Virus record (IMG/VR): IMGVR_UViG_3300027985_001217
Location: 1-39,634 of that record
Origin: a virus
Direction: 5' to 3' (one strand)
Length of the DNA stretch: 39,634 bases
In this document: positions 13,728 to 26,031 of the stretch, one piece after another
How positions within the stretch are numbered: the stretch's first letter is position 1
Layout: every line of letters starts with the position of its first letter
The notes under the pieces: model-generated
Databases searched by the model: none
What the model was told of the DNA's origin: nothing
What the model saw: the letters and a program-made list of their open reading frames with translations, nothing else
Translations under genes and position numbers: made by a program

Positions 13728-13895
13728 ATGGAAGAAAAGATAATTGAAATCCTGAAAGGGTACCAGCAGTTTAACCCGCAAGAAGGGCAAATAGTTTCCG
13801 CGGATTGGTTCCCGGATATCGCTGAAGATATCCAACAGCTCTTTGACCCAAAAACAAACAACAAAGAAAGCCTCTCAACATGCCTGAAACATTGA
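13728..13895 (+). CDS. Short acidic hypothetical protein
   Basis: A 55-residue ORF from ATG 13728, 10 bp after the previous stop and overlapping the start of the primase-helicase gene by 16 bp. The product begins EEKIIEILKGYQQF and has an acidic middle (SADWFPDIAEDIQQLF). It fills the gap exactly and is probably translated with its neighbours. Function unknown. Confidence 0.55.
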   Translation: MEEKIIEILKGYQQFNPQEGQIVSADWFPDIAEDIQQLFDPKTNNKESLSTCLKH

Positions 13896-16378
13896 AATAT
13901 GACGGCACCTTCGATATAGCTACCGGAAAGAGCCGAAAAGAAACACACTGGCGGAACAGGGAAACAACCTGGTCCGCTTTTCTTACCAAAGTTAAAGAAA
14001 CGCACCGGACAGCTGAGAAATACTCGGAGTACATGTCCTCCAAGAAATCACGCCAAGACGAGATCAAAGACGTGGGCGGCTTCGTGGGAGGGTATGTAAA
14101 CAACGGGAGACGAAAGGCTGAGAATATCCTGCACCGCCAACTGGTCACGCTTGACATTGACTTTGGCAGCATGGAGCTGTGGGATGATTTCTGTATGCTG
14201 TACGGTAATGCCGCTTGCGTGTACTCAACTCACAAGCACAGCTCCGATCATCAACGTTTGCGCCTGATCATCCCGCTTGACAGGCCTGTTGGCTCGGATG
14301 AATACGTGGCAATCTCCCGCCGTATTGCTGGTGAATTGGATATCAACAATTTCGATGATACGACCTACGAGCCAAGCCGGCTGATGTACTGGCCAAGTAC
14401 TGCTAAAGACGGAGAGTACGTGTTCGAGTACCAGGACGGACCTTGGATCTCAGCAGATGAGATCCTGGCGACTTACCGGAATTGGAAGGACGCCAGTGAG
14501 TGGCCAATCAGTGACCGGATGGACAAAGCCATTTTTCGTGAAATTAAAAAGCAGGGAGATCCGCTTGATAAACCGGGTATCATTGGAGCCTTCTGCCGGA
14601 CTTACACGATCCATGAAGCGATTGACTTGTTTCTGGCGGATGAGTACGAGGCGTGTGACATAGAGAACAGGTATACCTACAAAGAAGGATCGACAGCCGC
14701 CGGCTTGGTGGTCTATGATGACAAGTATGCCTATTCCCACCACGGGACAGACCCGACAAGCGGAAAGCTTTGCAACGCTTTTGACCTTGTTCGCCTTCAC
14801 TTGTACGGGCTACAGGACGAGGATGCCAAAGAGGGAACCCCCGGCAACCGGTTGCCGTCCTTCAAAGCGATGCAGGAATTCGCAGCCAAAGATCCGAAGA
14901 CCCGCAAACAGTTGGGGGTTGAACGCCTGGAGGAGATGAAATCTGAGTTCGGGGGCACTTGGGAAGCAACCGAAGACGAAGAAGAGCCGGACACCAGCTG
15001 GTTGGAAAAGATGGATGTTGACGGGAAAGGAAACTACCGGTCCACGATCAATAACGTGAAACTCATTCTCGATAATGACCCAAACCTAAAGGGGCGGTTT
15101 GCGCTGAACAAGTTCGAAAACCGGGAGGTGGCATTGAAGGATTTACCATGGAGAGAAGTTGACCCGAAATTACCTTACCTGACCGATAAAGATGACTCCG
15201 GAGTACGGCATTACATGGAGAGCGTCTATGATATTACCGGAGTGCAGAAGATCACCGATGCCTTTTCATTGACCTTGGAAAATAACTCATTTCACCCGAT
15301 CCGAGATTATCTGAAAGGGCTGGAATGGGATGGACAAGAAAGACTCGATTCGCTTTTCATTGATTACCTGGGGGCAGAGGATTGCAAATACACCCGTGCA
15401 GTCACGAGAAAGGCGATAGTTGCCGCTGTTGCACGGGTATTCGTCCCGGGTATCAAATTCGACAACGTTATTTGTTTCTCCGGTAAACAGGGCGAGGGTA
15501 AAAGTACGCTGATTCGGAAGCTTGGCAGAGGTTGGTATTCGGACAGCTTCGGAACAGTGCAAGGAAAGGAAGCCTATGAACAGATACAGGGGGTTTGGCT
15601 TGTTGAGATTGCAGAACTCGCCGGTTTGAAAAAAGCAGAAGCGGAAGCGATCAAACACTTTATGTCCAAACAGGTTGACCGGTTTCGAGTCGCTTACGGT
15701 AAGCGGGTGGAGAACTTTCCGAGGCAGTGCATTTTCTTCGCCACAACCAATGACTGGGACTTTCTGAACGACCCGACAGGAAACCGGCGCTTTTGGCCGG
15801 TAGCGACAAAGCAACAGGCCCCGACGAAGATAGTTTTTGATGACGGAGACCTGGATGATTACGAGATTGACCAGATTTGGGCGGAAGCAGTCGCCCTGTT
15901 CCGAGGCGGAGAAAGGCTATTTCTCAGCGCGGAAATGGAGAAAGAGGCTTTGTCCAGACAGAAAGAGCACTCGGTTATTGACGAACGAACAGGTGTTGTA
16001 CAGGAGTTCCTGGATACACTCTTACCGGAAGATTGGGAATCCCGGGACATTTATACAAGAAGAATCTTCTGGAGTAGTAGAGGCGAGGAACTTGGAGAGG
16101 TCGGGACCGTGGACCGAACACGTGTTTGCGTGGCAGAAATTTGGTGCGAATTGTTCGGTCAGAAGCAGTCTGACATGACCCGATATAACACGAAAGACAT
16201 TCACAACATTATGCGAAATATGCCCGGTTGGGAGCCGCAAAAAAGCACGTCCAGAATACCGGTTTATGGCAGTCAAAGAGTGTACAAACGTGTCGAAAAT
16301 TTGCAAAAACCAAGCATACACGAAGCCGAAAATCAGCATACACAGCATACAAGTAGAATGATTCTAAATAACGCCTAA
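13880..16378 (+). CDS. Primase-helicase (BT4734-like N-terminus, VirE-type ATPase)
   Basis: An 832-residue replication protein. The N-terminal half has primase-like features (RQLVTLDIDFG with DxD at about residues 92-94, then STHKHSSDHQRLRLIIPLDRP), fitting the BT4734/primase-polymerase group. The C-terminal half is a VirE-like SF3-type ATPase: Walker A GKQGEGKS at 535-542, Walker B-like WLVEIAEL at 573-580, then RQCIFFATTNDWDFL and NRRFWPV. It probably opens the origin, unwinds DNA and makes primers. The iteron array starts inside its 3' end (16313) and continues downstream, which is typical of an initiator and its origin. Confidence 0.9.
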   Translation: MPETLKYDGTFDIATGKSRKETHWRNRETTWSAFLTKVKETHRTAEKYSEYMSSKKSRQDEIKDVGGFVGGYVNNGRRKAENILHRQLVTLDIDFGSMELWDDFCMLYGNAACVYSTHKHSSDHQRLRLIIPLDRPVGSDEYVAISRRIAGELDINNFDDTTYEPSRLMYWPSTAKDGEYVFEYQDGPWISADEILATYRNWKDASEWPISDRMDKAIFREIKKQGDPLDKPGIIGAFCRTYTIHEAIDLFLADEYEACDIENRYTYKEGSTAAGLVVYDDKYAYSHHGTDPTSGKLCNAFDLVRLHLYGLQDEDAKEGTPGNRLPSFKAMQEFAAKDPKTRKQLGVERLEEMKSEFGGTWEATEDEEEPDTSWLEKMDVDGKGNYRSTINNVKLILDNDPNLKGRFALNKFENREVALKDLPWREVDPKLPYLTDKDDSGVRHYMESVYDITGVQKITDAFSLTLENNSFHPIRDYLKGLEWDGQERLDSLFIDYLGAEDCKYTRAVTRKAIVAAVARVFVPGIKFDNVICFSGKQGEGKSTLIRKLGRGWYSDSFGTVQGKEAYEQIQGVWLVEIAELAGLKKAEAEAIKHFMSKQVDRFRVAYGKRVENFPRQCIFFATTNDWDFLNDPTGNRRFWPVATKQQAPTKIVFDDGDLDDYEIDQIWAEAVALFRGGERLFLSAEMEKEALSRQKEHSVIDERTGVVQEFLDTLLPEDWESRDIYTRRIFWSSRGEELGEVGTVDRTRVCVAEIWCELFGQKQSDMTRYNTKDIHNIMRNMPGWEPQKSTSRIPVYGSQRVYKRVENLQKPSIHEAENQHTQHTSRMILNNA

Positions 16379-16597
16379 GCATACACAGCATACAGGCAGC
16401 ATACACAAAAATTAAAGCCTGTATGCTTCTGAAATGGTAGAAAAATAAGGGCTTTCAAGCTATTAGCATACACAGCATACACTAAAAAGTAAAAAACTAT
16501 GAAAGATATAAATAGAGAGAAAAATAAAGGAAAAATATTCTCTAATCCCTCAAATGCGTACCCCTCCTCGCGCGTACGCGCGTGTTTCGTGTATGCT
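16313..16597. repeat. Iteron array, probable phage replication origin
   Basis: Ten copies of AGCATACA (usually AGCATACAC): on + at 16313, 16335, 16344, 16378, 16387, 16398, 16465 and 16474; on - at 16419-16427 and 16589-16597. Three pairs are exact 9-bp tandems (16335/16344, 16378/16387, 16465/16474). AGCATACAGGC (16387-16397) and GCCTGTATGCT (16417-16427) form a perfect inverted repeat. An AT-rich stretch (16483-16555) and a GC palindrome (16569-16582) follow. Iterons, AT-rich DNA and an adjacent primase-helicase gene are the standard signs of an origin. Confidence 0.75.
16569..16582. repeat. Perfect 14-bp palindrome CGCGCGTACGCGCG
   Basis: An uninterrupted palindrome in the iteron region, much richer in GC than its surroundings, 6 bp before the last inverted iteron and 40 bp before the VRR-NUC start codon. 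It could be a protein-binding or cruciform site at the origin. Confidence 0.6.
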
Positions 16598-16904: not shown

Positions 16905-18302
16905 ATGGAATTTAAACCTTGGGAATATCAAGACCACGCGATTGATCACATCATCGAAAACCCGTTTGCCGGTTTATTCCTCGACATGGGACTTGGCAAG
17001 ACGGTATCAACCCTAACCGCAGTCAATCGCTTGATGTACGAAGACCTTGAGATTGACAAGGTATTGGTGATCGCCCCGAAACGAGTGGCAGAAGATACCT
17101 GGACAACTGAAGTGGATAAATGGAACCATCTGAAACACCTCCGTGTGTCAGTGGTCCTTGGGACGGAGCGTCAACGTAAAGAAGCCTTGAAAGCAAAAGC
17201 CGACATCTATGTGATCAACCGGGAAAACGTTCCTTGGTTGGTTGGTTTTTACCAAAGCGCGTGGCCGTTTGACATGGTCGTGATCGATGAGCTGTCCAGT
17301 TTCAAATCTGCAAAAGCAATCCGGTTTAAAGCTCTTCGCATGGTGCGGCCGATGATCAAACGTGTAGTTGGCCTGACAGGTACACCGGCCCCCAACGGAC
17401 TAATCGATCTTTGGCCACAGGTTTATCTGCTTGATCAGGGTGAACGTCTTGGGAAGTCGATCACCCGGTACCGGGAAACCTACTTCACCCCGGGCAGACG
17501 AAACGGACATGTAGTTTTCAACTACAACCTGAGATCGGACGGAGAACAACGGATCTACGAAAAGATTTCAGATATCTGCATCAGTATGAAGGCGAAGGAT
17601 TATCTCCAGCTACCGGAGCGGATTAACCGGACAGTAGAGATCACTCTTCCGGACAAACTGAAAGCAAAGTATGACGAGTTTGAGCGGGAGCAGATCCTTG
17701 CACTGGAAGACTCAGACGAGATTTCAGCAGTTAATGCCGCTGCGCTGTCCGGTAAGCTTTTACAGTTTGCCAACGGAGCGGTTTACGATGCTGAGAAAAA
17801 CTGGCATGAGGTTCATAAGGCCAAACTGGAAGCACTTGACGAGATCATTGACACGGCCAACGGCCAGCCGGTTTTGGTGTTTTATTCCTTCAAACACGAT
17901 TTGGCCCGCATCCAGGAAGCATTGAAAAAGTACAAACCCAAAACGCTGGACGACAAAGAGGATATCCGTGCCTGGAACCAGGGAAACATTCAACTACTTC
18001 TCGCCCACCCCGCCAGTGCAGGACATGGATTGAATCTACAGGCCGGTGGAAACATCATTGTTTGGTTTGGACTCACCTGGTCATTGGAGTTGTATCAGCA
18101 GGCCAATGCCCGGCTTGACCGACAGGGACAGACAAAACCGGTTATTGTACACCATCTGGCCGTACGAGGGACAATGGATGAGGACGTGATGCTGTCGATT
18201 GACCGCAAGGCAACCGGACAAGACGCCTTGATGGATGCTGTCCGGGTTCGAATTCTGAAATATCAAAAACCAAATACCAAATCCAAAAACGCAGTAGCAT
18301 GA
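16905..18302 (+). CDS. SF2 DNA helicase (SNF2-like)
   Basis: A 465-residue superfamily 2 ATPase. Walker A is DMGLGKT (about 27-33), motif II is VIDELSSF (DELS at 128-131), motif III is GLTGTPAPNG, and the second RecA domain has VLVFYSFKHDL, AGHGLNLQAGG and the arginine finger region QQANARLDRQGQT. This is the usual phage DEAD/SNF2-like helicase that follows VRR-NUC. It may remodel forks or displace proteins from DNA. Its last codon overlaps the next start by 4 bp. Confidence 0.93.
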   Translation: MEFKPWEYQDHAIDHIIENPFAGLFLDMGLGKTVSTLTAVNRLMYEDLEIDKVLVIAPKRVAEDTWTTEVDKWNHLKHLRVSVVLGTERQRKEALKAKADIYVINRENVPWLVGFYQSAWPFDMVVIDELSSFKSAKAIRFKALRMVRPMIKRVVGLTGTPAPNGLIDLWPQVYLLDQGERLGKSITRYRETYFTPGRRNGHVVFNYNLRSDGEQRIYEKISDICISMKAKDYLQLPERINRTVEITLPDKLKAKYDEFEREQILALEDSDEISAVNAAALSGKLLQFANGAVYDAEKNWHEVHKAKLEALDEIIDTANGQPVLVFYSFKHDLARIQEALKKYKPKTLDDKEDIRAWNQGNIQLLLAHPASAGHGLNLQAGGNIIVWFGLTWSLELYQQANARLDRQGQTKPVIVHHLAVRGTMDEDVMLSIDRKATGQDALMDAVRVRILKYQKPNTKSKNAVA

Positions 18303-18958
18303 AAGTTTACATCTCTGGAAAAATAACAGGATTACCCGCGAACCAGGTTCGTGCAAAATTCAGTAGTGCCGAGAAACATCTGACAAGTATCGGCTATGAA
18401 ACAGTCAACCCCTTAGACAACGGATTAACACCTGAACATACATGGGCAGAACACATGATTGCTGATATCCGTTTGCTTTTTGAGTGCGATGCGATCTACC
18501 TTTTATCCGACTGGCTTGATAGCCGCGGGGCATTGATCGAAAAGCACATTGCCGAAATTCTTGGGCTGAAGATTATTTCCCAAACCCAGGATACTTCTGA
18601 AGCTGAAAATCAAGCCAAGCAGGAAATGGTGCTGTACAAGGTCGAATTAGCTATTCAGGACGTGACCGGATTAACCCGCGAACATTACGTTGTCAAATCC
18701 AGAGACCAGGACATGTATTTCCTTCGGATGATCTATGCCTACCATGGCTTTAACAACGGGGTGACCAATCGAAATCACATTGGTAGAAGGGTTTGCCGGG
18801 ATCATGCAACAGTTTACCGGATGCTGAATCTTTATTCGAATGAATTTAAAGTGAATTCGACTTTCAGAGCGCTTGCTTCAAAGATCAACACCCGCATTGA
18901 GGCAGCACTTAACCCAAACCGAATAAAGGTTGAACCAATCGCGGAAAAAGTGTACTGA
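18299..18958 (+). CDS. DUF4406 fused to a DnaA domain IV-like DNA-binding module
   Basis: A 219-residue two-domain protein. Residues 1-95 (MKVYISGKITGLP, ECDAIYLLSDWLDSRGALIE, then HIAEILGLKII) match DUF4406, a nucleoside 2-deoxyribosyltransferase-like fold. Residues about 116-182 resemble the C-terminal domain of DnaA: a helix region VTGLTREHYVVKSRDQDMYF, then NHIGRRVCRDHATVYRMLNLY, where RDHATV corresponds to the DnaA signature RDHxTV. It is the last gene before the operon terminator. A role in origin recognition or nucleotide metabolism is possible; the enzyme activity of DUF4406 is unproven. Confidence 0.85.
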   Translation: MKVYISGKITGLPANQVRAKFSSAEKHLTSIGYETVNPLDNGLTPEHTWAEHMIADIRLLFECDAIYLLSDWLDSRGALIEKHIAEILGLKIISQTQDTSEAENQAKQEMVLYKVELAIQDVTGLTREHYVVKSRDQDMYFLRMIYAYHGFNNGVTNRNHIGRRVCRDHATVYRMLNLYSNEFKVNSTFRALASKINTRIEAALNPNRIKVEPIAEKVY

Positions 18959-18984: not shown

Positions 18985-19015
18985 AAAAAGACGTATTAGT
19001 GTGATACGTCTTTTT
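18985..19015 (+). terminator. Intrinsic terminator of the early operon
   Basis: AAAAAGACGTAT (18985-18996) pairs perfectly with ATACGTCTTTTT (19004-19015), leaving a 7-base loop TAGTGTG and ending in a T run. Both arms carry A/T ends, so it may work in both directions. It separates the replication operon from the terminase genes. Confidence 0.88.
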
Positions 19016-19049: not shown

Positions 19050-19571
19050 ATGGCAGCCAAGAAAGGAAACAAATACCACACAGCACGAAAAACAAACGGA
19101 CGAAAAACGCTTTACAAAGCGGAGTTTGCAGAGCAAGCTTATAAGCTCACTTTGCTTGGCGCGACCGACGCTGAATTGGCTGACTTCTTTGGGGTTTCAG
19201 AGCAATCAGTTAATGCTTGGAAGAAAAGGCATAAAGATTTTCTTGAGTCCATAAAAAAGGGAAAACGTTTGGCAGACGCTGACGTGGCAGACAGACTGTA
19301 TCAGCGAGCAATGGGATTCGAGCATGATTCGGTTGAGATTAAGGTTGTTGACGGAGGCATAGTTGAAGTTCCAGTCCGTAAAGTTTATCCGCCGGATGCG
19401 ACTTCTGCTATCTTCTGGCTTAAAAACAGACAACCGGACAAATGGAGAGACAAAACGACGACTGAACTCACAGGAAGGGATGGAAAAGACCTGTTCGCAA
19501 AGCTTACAGACGATGAACTGGATGCGAAGATAACCGAGATGGAAACTAAACTTAAAAAACTCAAGGATTAG
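19050..19571 (+). CDS. terS: Terminase small subunit
   Basis: A 173-residue DNA-recognition subunit of the packaging motor. The N-terminal HTH is at about 33-58 (LLGATDAELADFFGVSEQSVNAWKKRH). Then come the oligomerisation region (LADADVADRLYQRAMGFEHD), the conserved PPDATSAIFWLKNRQPDKWRD box at about 112-132 and a charged C-terminal helix. It ends 2 bp before the large subunit gene, as expected. It should bind a pac or cos site, which may lie near this gene but was not identified. Confidence 0.92.
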   Translation: MAAKKGNKYHTARKTNGRKTLYKAEFAEQAYKLTLLGATDAELADFFGVSEQSVNAWKKRHKDFLESIKKGKRLADADVADRLYQRAMGFEHDSVEIKVVDGGIVEVPVRKVYPPDATSAIFWLKNRQPDKWRDKTTTELTGRDGKDLFAKLTDDELDAKITEMETKLKKLKD

Positions 19572-25047: not shown

Positions 25048-25271
25048 AGATTTAGAAAATAATCACTTTCTGATTCATACTTATCGGGAAGGCGATTCAT
25101 GAGAAGGTCATACATGTACACTTCGAACTGTTTCTCTTTCTTCTGCAGGTCTTTCAGGTTCGCGTGATTACTTTCAAACAATTTCTCGTATTCCCAGAAC
25201 TGTGAGGCTGCCCAGTTTTCTTCCGGGTCAAACGGGTTTTTAGTTTCTCCTTTATAGTACTTGTATTTCAT
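25041..25271 (-). CDS. Small acidic protein in the ADP-ribosylglycohydrolase operon
   Basis: A 76-residue protein rich in aromatic and charged residues (MKYKYYKGETKNPFDPEENW, ending SESDYFLNLY). Its start overlaps the 3' end of the glycohydrolase gene by 20 bp, and its stop overlaps the stop of the convergent MuF-ART gene by 7 bp. I do not recognise the family. Position alone makes it a candidate second immunity or partner protein for the ART domain. Confidence 0.65.
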   Translation of the reverse strand: MKYKYYKGETKNPFDPEENWAASQFWEYEKLFESNHANLKDLQKKEKQFEVYMYDLLMNRLPDKYESESDYFLNLY

Positions 25272-26031
25272 TTTTATGCTTTTTGAATTTGGATATTATT
25301 TTTTTCACGTCGTTCGGCATAAATGCCAAAGCCTTTTCTTCCATCCAGGCAGGAATTCCGTAATAGGCTTCAGCTAAAGATCCGGTAATCGCAGCAATCG
25401 TATCAGAATCGCCTCCAATTGACACGGCTAACCTAATAGCGCTCTCGAAATCCGAACTTTCAAGAAAGCAGACTATTGCCTGAGGAACGGTAACTTGGCA
25501 AGTCTCATCAAACCAATTCACCGGTCTGATTTCATCGCAGGTGAAGTCTATATTATATCGAAATTTGAATTTTATGCTTTTGCGTAATTCATCCAACGTT
25601 GCCCCTTGACTCAACATATAAATGCTAAGGGCTATGCATTGCGCGCCACGTACTCCTTCAGGATGATTGTGGGTTATATTCGCCGACTCCTTTGCCAATT
25701 TCAAGGCATCGTCATGACTGCCCGCTAACCAACCAACAGGCGAAACCCGCATTGCAGAACCATTACCAAAACTATTGTAGGGCCCCATACTTTTGTCATG
25801 AACCCATCGACCAAACATCCCACCATAAGAGCTGGGATACTTCCGGCACCAGTTTCTCATGGTCTCTGGCAGATTACTGTTAGGGTGTAATAGCCAATCG
25901 GCAACTGCGACAGAACAGATGGTATCATCCGTAAACATGCAATCCGGGTGGAAGAATTCGAAGTCAGTCCCCCGATAGTTATTAAATTCAAACCGGGATC
26001 CGACTACATCTCCTATAATTGCTCCTATCAT
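25252..26031 (-). CDS. ADP-ribosylglycohydrolase (DraG/ARH family)
   Basis: A 259-residue enzyme that removes ADP-ribose from proteins (typically from arginine) or related substrates. Family motifs are clear: IGAIIGDVVGSRFE at the N-terminus, the metal-binding FTDDT (T34, D35, D36), GNGSAMRVSPVGW at 90-101, THNHPEGVRGA at 120-130, and SIGGDSDTIAAI with GGDSDT at 206-211, supplying the second metal site. It is full length. It sits on the opposite strand to the MuF-ART gene, separated from it only by the 76-residue gene. Protection of the lysogen from ADP-ribosylation is the obvious hypothesis; reversal of a host defence is another. Confidence 0.93.
   Translation of the reverse strand: MIGAIIGDVVGSRFEFNNYRGTDFEFFHPDCMFTDDTICSVAVADWLLHPNSNLPETMRNWCRKYPSSYGGMFGRWVHDKSMGPYNSFGNGSAMRVSPVGWLAGSHDDALKLAKESANITHNHPEGVRGAQCIALSIYMLSQGATLDELRKSIKFKFRYNIDFTCDEIRPVNWFDETCQVTVPQAIVCFLESSDFESAIRLAVSIGGDSDTIAAITGSLAEAYYGIPAWMEEKALAFMPNDVKKIISKFKKHKNEIQVL

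Follow-up and report, generated by a model that had tools for sequence, protein, structure and literature searches.

A phage gene that joins a DUF4406 domain to a DnaA-type domain IV

The fusion gene and its two domains

The window, by which we mean the whole 39,634-nucleotide stretch analysed here (IMG/VR virus record IMGVR_UViG_3300027985_001217), carries genes in the order polymerase, helicase-primase, endonuclease, helicase, fusion, terminase. The helicase-primase gene (phrog_256) occupies positions 13880–16378 of the + strand, and a cluster of 10 iterons, copies of AGCATACA on either strand, lies at 16313–16597, upstream of the fusion gene by the 1.7 kb that an earlier, sequence-only reading of this DNA had given. 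A DNA helicase gene (phrog_62, 16905–18302, +) sits directly upstream of the fusion gene (18299–18958, +; 219 aa), whose ATG overlaps the helicase stop by 4 bases. The fusion gene is the final gene of the early operon, a replication-type setting as that reading had it; after it come a terminator-like hairpin with a 14-bp stem (18985–19015, +; RNA fold z −3.8) and the terminase genes, including the small subunit (phrog_309, 19050–19571, +). Elsewhere in the window, an ADP-ribosylglycohydrolase (PF03747, 134.9 bits) is encoded on the opposite strand (25252–26031, −), just after an 846-aa gene without a Pfam match whose C-terminus looks by eye like an ADP-ribosyltransferase.

The fusion ORF, which holds GRRVCRDHATVYR as read directly from the sequence, matches PHROG 5781 over residues 1–207 (E 6e-31), a family listed as of unknown function. 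Pfam, profile searches, a structural model and structure comparison all bear out what had been claimed for it, a fusion of an NDT-like DUF4406 domain with a module of the DnaA domain IV kind, and show the latter to be a genuine domain IV. The extents first proposed, residues 1–95 and 116–182, captured both domains but fell somewhat short of their true bounds (about 1–96 and 110–205).

The N-terminal domain is matched by Pfam DUF4406 over residues 1–93 (18299–18577, +) at 73.2 bits against a cut-off of 22, and all 24 family members match as well. In the model, residues 1–106 resemble structures of NDT, DNPH1 and CMP N-glycosidase such as MilB, with Z of about 9–12 and low identity, about 12–23%; the domain also matches MazG-like and deoxyribosyltransferase PHROGs. 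The catalytic triad of DNPH1, according to PMC10603095, is Y24, D80 and E104. From spacing and profile alignment, we infer that Tyr4, Asp56 and Glu81 are the equivalent Tyr-Asp-Glu triad in the window protein; these positions are kept in 24, 23 and 24 of the 24 members, respectively. The domain is predicted to have a nucleotide N-glycosidase fold and is probably active.

A long helix (residues 99–123; 18593–18667, +) joins the two domains and is at the same time the first helix of domain IV by DSSP; in structure comparison, the alignments of 1l8q and 2hcb to the model begin at residue 97. Domain IV itself spans residues 110–205 (18626–18913, +), as delimited by structure and profile comparisons. 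The window protein matches Pfam Bac_DnaA_C over residues 118–173 at 17.4 bits (E 0.0045), below the cut-off of 31.5. We take this weak match as real because the Pfam profile reaches E ≤ 0.01 in 22 of the 24 aligned members of the family (best 1.6e-12) and because an hhalign comparison of the C-domains of 11 members with the domain IVs of 8 host DnaA proteins gives a probability of 99.05 (E 2e-18, 94 columns). Forward fusions from prophages score 47.5, 46.9 and 42.4 bits, above the same cut-off, and 29 and 28.8 bits, below it. A profile made solely from Bacteroidales chromosomal DnaA gives the window C-terminus 27.1 bits, a score reached by none of 2,000 shuffles (best 11.4); member L054 obtains just 8.5 bits from this profile.

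The structure prediction that the sequence-only reading had proposed as a check returned a DnaA-type fold. The AlphaFold model has a pLDDT of 88.5 and a pTM of 0.52, a value at which the relative placing of the two domains is not fixed by the model. Residues 110–205 superpose on two DnaA–DNA complexes, 3pvp (M. tuberculosis DnaA-DBD; 96 of 96 residues, rmsd 1.9, VIA Z 14.4) and 1j1v (93 of 94 residues, rmsd 1.9, Z 13.6). Plain Foldseek E-values are modest, the best being 1.1e-3. An eight-member family profile finds the solved DnaA chains of T. maritima (2e-6), Aquifex (9e-5) and B. subtilis (7e-4), with those of M. tuberculosis (0.03) and E. coli (0.64) weaker; its list is topped by designed helical proteins, matched through weak repeated stretches, and includes CMP N-glycosidase at 0.13. 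The 24-member profile has some match in 234 of 295 genomes from the order of an Alistipes genome, and among the matches listed most span profile positions ~80–195 in frames of 460–520 aa, the size of chromosomal DnaA. Nine genomes searched whole with Pfam Bac_DnaA_C each contain exactly two matches, one in the chromosomal DnaA and one in the phage gene. The window ORF has no AAA+ domain III and so is not a DnaA initiator; as had been claimed, DUF4406 alone precedes domain IV.

Recurrence of the domain pair

The order seen in PHROG 5781, DUF4406 followed by domain IV, is kept in more than 25 relatives. In a search with the C-domain alone, all 23 loci returned encode DUF4406 in front; this search started from the forward family, favours close kin and is blind to remote domain-IV proteins. 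The survey of domain fusions that had been suggested for this protein revealed further arrangements. Among 393 genomes of the Bacteroidales order, 36 list 42 DUF4406 sites, of which 41 were analysed, a fragment in G112 being left out. These comprise 5 forward fusions, 2 reverse fusions with domain IV first, and 2 pairs of neighbouring genes, one overlapping and the other 0.36 kb apart; the remaining 32 of the 41 sites have no clear neighbouring domain IV. The pairs exclude domain-IV matches at L217, L218, L233, L239 and L248 that were weak or lay at some distance (about 0.4 to 5.6 kb). The domain-IV profile used for this survey includes both reverse and both adjacent sequences, whose scores are therefore non-independent, and the Pfam scores are independent. 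DUF4406 and domain IV are thus also fused in reverse order and placed side by side in Bacteroidales prophages, arrangements that are new. Profile search of the viral-contig loci without the fusion found no separate domain-IV gene near a separate DUF4406 gene, full-length fusions among named phage records are confined to two Porphyromonas phage records, and no full-length fusion was found in plasmids.

The reverse fusion L232 looks independent of the forward family. In trees that are both built on few columns, its domain IV falls among the domain IVs of host DnaA and of standalone proteins (95/91), and its DUF4406 clusters with the standalone copies of gut phages (99); this placement favours a separate fusion event. 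The DUF4406 tree leaves out the other reverse fusion, L255, whose placing is unsure; odd-numbered viral loci without the fusion were thinned from it, and L052 is labelled solo there although it lies on the same contig as fusion L146. Two other domain-IV rows are set among the forward fusions, and monophyly of the forward fusions is not rejected (AU p 0.158). Genes matching AAA_22 and DUF3164 accompany the reverse and adjacent pairs (L225, L227, L232, L255), and we take the elements to be Mu-like; a large protein of L232 has no Pfam match. In a separate locus (L258, 9791–10357, −), a 189-aa frame carries a domain IV of the forward-family type behind a cysteine-containing N-terminus that replaces DUF4406.

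A one-off fusion is ruled out by the recurrence in relatives and genomes. That the two domains keep being found together, fused either way round or encoded side by side, is the strongest argument available for a joint function, and the parts probably work together.

DNA-reading residues, candidate sites and gene neighbourhoods

The window protein carries RDHATV at residues 167–172 (18797–18814, +), which we align with RDHTTV (432–437) of E. coli DnaA, and Arg135 (18701–18703, +) is the counterpart of E. coli Arg399. The base readers of DnaA named in PMC7561715 are R399, P423, D433, H434, T435 and H439. The E. coli numbering used here comes from a C-terminal sequence checked solely against the residue numbers in that source; on this numbering, the window has R135, N159, D168, H169, A170 and R174 at these positions and keeps 3 of 6, the T435 position being A or S in host DnaA too. 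Among the 24 members, counterparts are kept for R399 in 22, R407 in 24, D433 in 19, H434 in 16 and H439 in 17, but not for P423. Host DnaA in the nine genomes has KDH or RDH in 9/9, with nearly constant box-reading residues, whereas the phage copies in the same genomes keep the DH pair in 5/9 and miss one turn residue in 9/9. This drift against a near-constant host suggests that the phage reader, although DnaA-like, probably reads a site that has moved.

These residues bear on two alternatives. The protein could compete with host DnaA, as the earlier reading had allowed, by occupying host DnaA boxes (TTATCCACA-type) and blocking host initiation or DnaA-controlled promoters. The retention of the R399-, D433- and H434-equivalents in most members fits such a role, as do phage loci that are not box-rich, leaving the host as a conceivable target, and the presence of some pairs in Mu-like-looking elements, where no DnaA-type origin is expected. 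The variation of the phage residues and the turn residue missing from every one of the nine copies speak against it, and we consider it unsupported and quite improbable. Alternatively, the pairing might reflect neutral accretion, with a domain IV that has lost its DNA binding in many members. The recognition helix does drift in some clades, but the R399- and R407-equivalents stay conserved and the pairing recurs in both orders, which makes this very improbable.

No site for the protein stands out in the fusion loci. DnaA boxes are neither enriched nor depleted across 30 of them, with 38 found against 45.3 expected on a two-base-memory background, where 17 of 40 permuted patterns score lower than the DnaA box. 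An apparent depletion on a one-base-memory background (38 against 68 expected) vanished under the two-base-memory background and the permuted patterns. No repeat tied to the fusion gene was found in these loci. Seven loci (L143, L145, L146, L151, L002, L055 and L231) have GCATTGCA/CAATGCAA/AATGCAAA-type words in four copies, about 1.2–2.6 kb upstream of the fusion; the words sit at the initiator gene, like origins inside initiator genes. Porphyromonas phage005b (L041) has 16 copies of CGTTGCAC clustered from about 12349, ~1.1 kb after the fusion start.

The iterons of the window accompany the helicase-primase rather than the fusion gene. At the corresponding position, seven of nine relatives of the helicase-primase carry iterons of other sequence (TGGATACA, TGTCAACA, CGGATACA and others), and none of the nine has DUF4406 or domain IV in the sequence examined. 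The iterons that follow the helicase-primase are likely a type of origin with fast-changing repeats. As they occur with this gene in phages whose examined sequence has no fusion gene, we reject them as the target of the fusion protein, which does not co-occur with iterons in the manner of an iteron-binding initiator. The suggestion that the protein, lying close to the iterons, could recognise the phage or host origin was right about the distance, but the iterons accompany the helicase-primase (7/9, against 0/9 for the gene); origin or iteron recognition is possible but unsupported.

A DnaC-like AAA+ loader (named from the annotation in PP754928) lies 1–4 genes upstream in 19/30 fusion loci, mostly after a Lin1244_N initiator; of the remaining 11 loci, 5 or more are cut off within two genes upstream. 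This proximity would suit an origin-binding accessory of the initiator, whose domain IV reads the phage origin and aids initiator and loader, as would the genes for domain IV alone that other phages carry close to their replication genes. Such an accessory is nevertheless decidedly improbable: the iterons of the window are tied to the helicase-primase, also in phages lacking the fusion gene, the repeats that recur in other fusion loci are located at the initiator gene itself, and the same domain pair occurs in Mu-like-looking elements.

On the other flanks, a Rha/KilAC gene directly precedes the fusion in 14/30 loci, and a gene read as a cytosine methylase follows it directly in 12/30 and lies 1–7 genes downstream in 14/30; a gene cluster read as MazG-type lies 1–7 genes downstream in 10/30. 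Such downstream genes are among the points in favour of a DNA-tethered nucleotide sanitiser, in which DUF4406 would hydrolyse a deoxynucleotide, such as a damaged or methylated dNMP, and the role of domain IV would just be to hold the enzyme at replicating phage DNA. The conserved triad, the closeness of the fold to NDT, CMP N-glycosidase and DNPH1, and the MazG-like and deoxyribosyltransferase PHROG matches are consistent with it as well. A pool enzyme, however, could do without a DNA reader, and such a domain is missing from most DUF4406 proteins surveyed; we regard this role as unlikely.

In the window, the gene sits between helicase and terminase genes, as do late regulators of the ArpU/DUF1492 type, whereas most fusion relatives do not and are followed by methylase, exonuclease, MazG-type or SSB genes, unlike the early/late boundary of the window. 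The helicase–terminase slot is readable in 8/9 helicase-primase relatives and holds 7 distinct proteins judged by eye to be HTH-type; for 5/7, Pfam gives a match to an HTH or to sigma region 4, over the cut-off in 1, and two have no match. Their link to domain IV is weak (hhalign probability 39.6% over 23 columns), and Pfam finds neither DUF1492 nor sigma region 4, the mark of an ArpU/DUF1492-type late regulator, in the window protein. With HTH-type proteins in this slot, a regulator of the late switch becomes an appealing reading of the window gene, though most other fusion loci are arranged differently.

Proposed function and relation to known systems

We tentatively favour a phage regulator of replication or of the early operon, with DnaA-type DNA binding at sites of its own and a DUF4406 domain that uses or senses a nucleotide. 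The C-terminal domain IV would bind a DnaA-box-like, phage-specific sequence. The N-terminal domain, for which an N-glycosidase/deoxyribosyltransferase fold and an intact triad are computed, may be active and form dimers, as its relatives suggest. Nucleotide binding or hydrolysis there would determine how two DNA-reading domains pair or act, and phage replication or the early-to-late switch would thereby answer to the nucleotide pool. This regulator is preferred because both domains are real, the triad and the R399/R407 counterparts are kept, the pairing is recurrent and the context is that of a loader and initiator. Against it count the lack of DnaA-box enrichment, the absence of repeats tied to the gene, and the early/late boundary position, which holds for the window but rarely for relatives. 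A bolder version, in which a phage has rebuilt the logic of DnaA, with an N-glycosidase-fold engine replacing the AAA+ ATPase behind a similar connecting helix and nucleotide binding or turnover switching box binding, and in which the two parts came together more than once, is unlikely. The fusion offers a testable function for a DUF and for PHROG 5781, shows the DNA-reading domain of DnaA to be a portable unit that, in Bacteroidales phages, is repeatedly paired with a nucleotide-handling domain, and provides a simple system for asking whether nucleotide pools feed directly into phage replication or gene control.

The open-access literature searched yielded no paper on a DUF4406–domain IV fusion, and the listing of PHROG 5781, the same family over residues 1–207, names no domain IV. 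With DnaA domain IV (Bac_DnaA_C; 1j1v, 3pvp), the window protein shares the whole-domain fold, the R399/R407 counterparts and the RDHxTV helix. It differs from DnaA in having no domains I–II or III, in a turn one residue shorter than that of the host, and in N and R at the P423 and H439 positions. With DUF4406/NDT, DNPH1 and the CMP N-glycosidases MilB and BcmB, it shares the fold and the Tyr-Asp-Glu pattern, to which the fusion adds a DNA-binding domain.

A domain IV without the AAA+ part is not as unusual as first claimed: it is not rare in phages, several of which have annotated standalone proteins of about 140–190 aa, and it also occurs in REP-type transposases, some of which have Bac_DnaA_C as a known C-terminal domain (PMC6006769). 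The REP-associated tyrosine transposases of subclass 2.1.2 described there resemble the fusion in carrying a Bac_DnaA_C-like DNA-binding tail within a mobile element and in having flanking repeats that, as at the fusion loci, are not DnaA boxes; they differ in having a Y1 HuH nuclease where the fusion has DUF4406. In the Polaribacter phages Freya and Danklef (L287, 4911–5768; L291, 3411–4268), an NTP-PPase gene comes immediately after a separate gene for domain IV; here too, a DnaA reader and a nucleotide enzyme are neighbours. The standalone domain-IV proteins of Polaribacter phage Freya, Tenacibaculum phage Gundel and Rhizobium phage RHph_N28_2 likewise lack AAA+ and lie near replication genes, and differ from the fusion in that no DUF4406 is attached.
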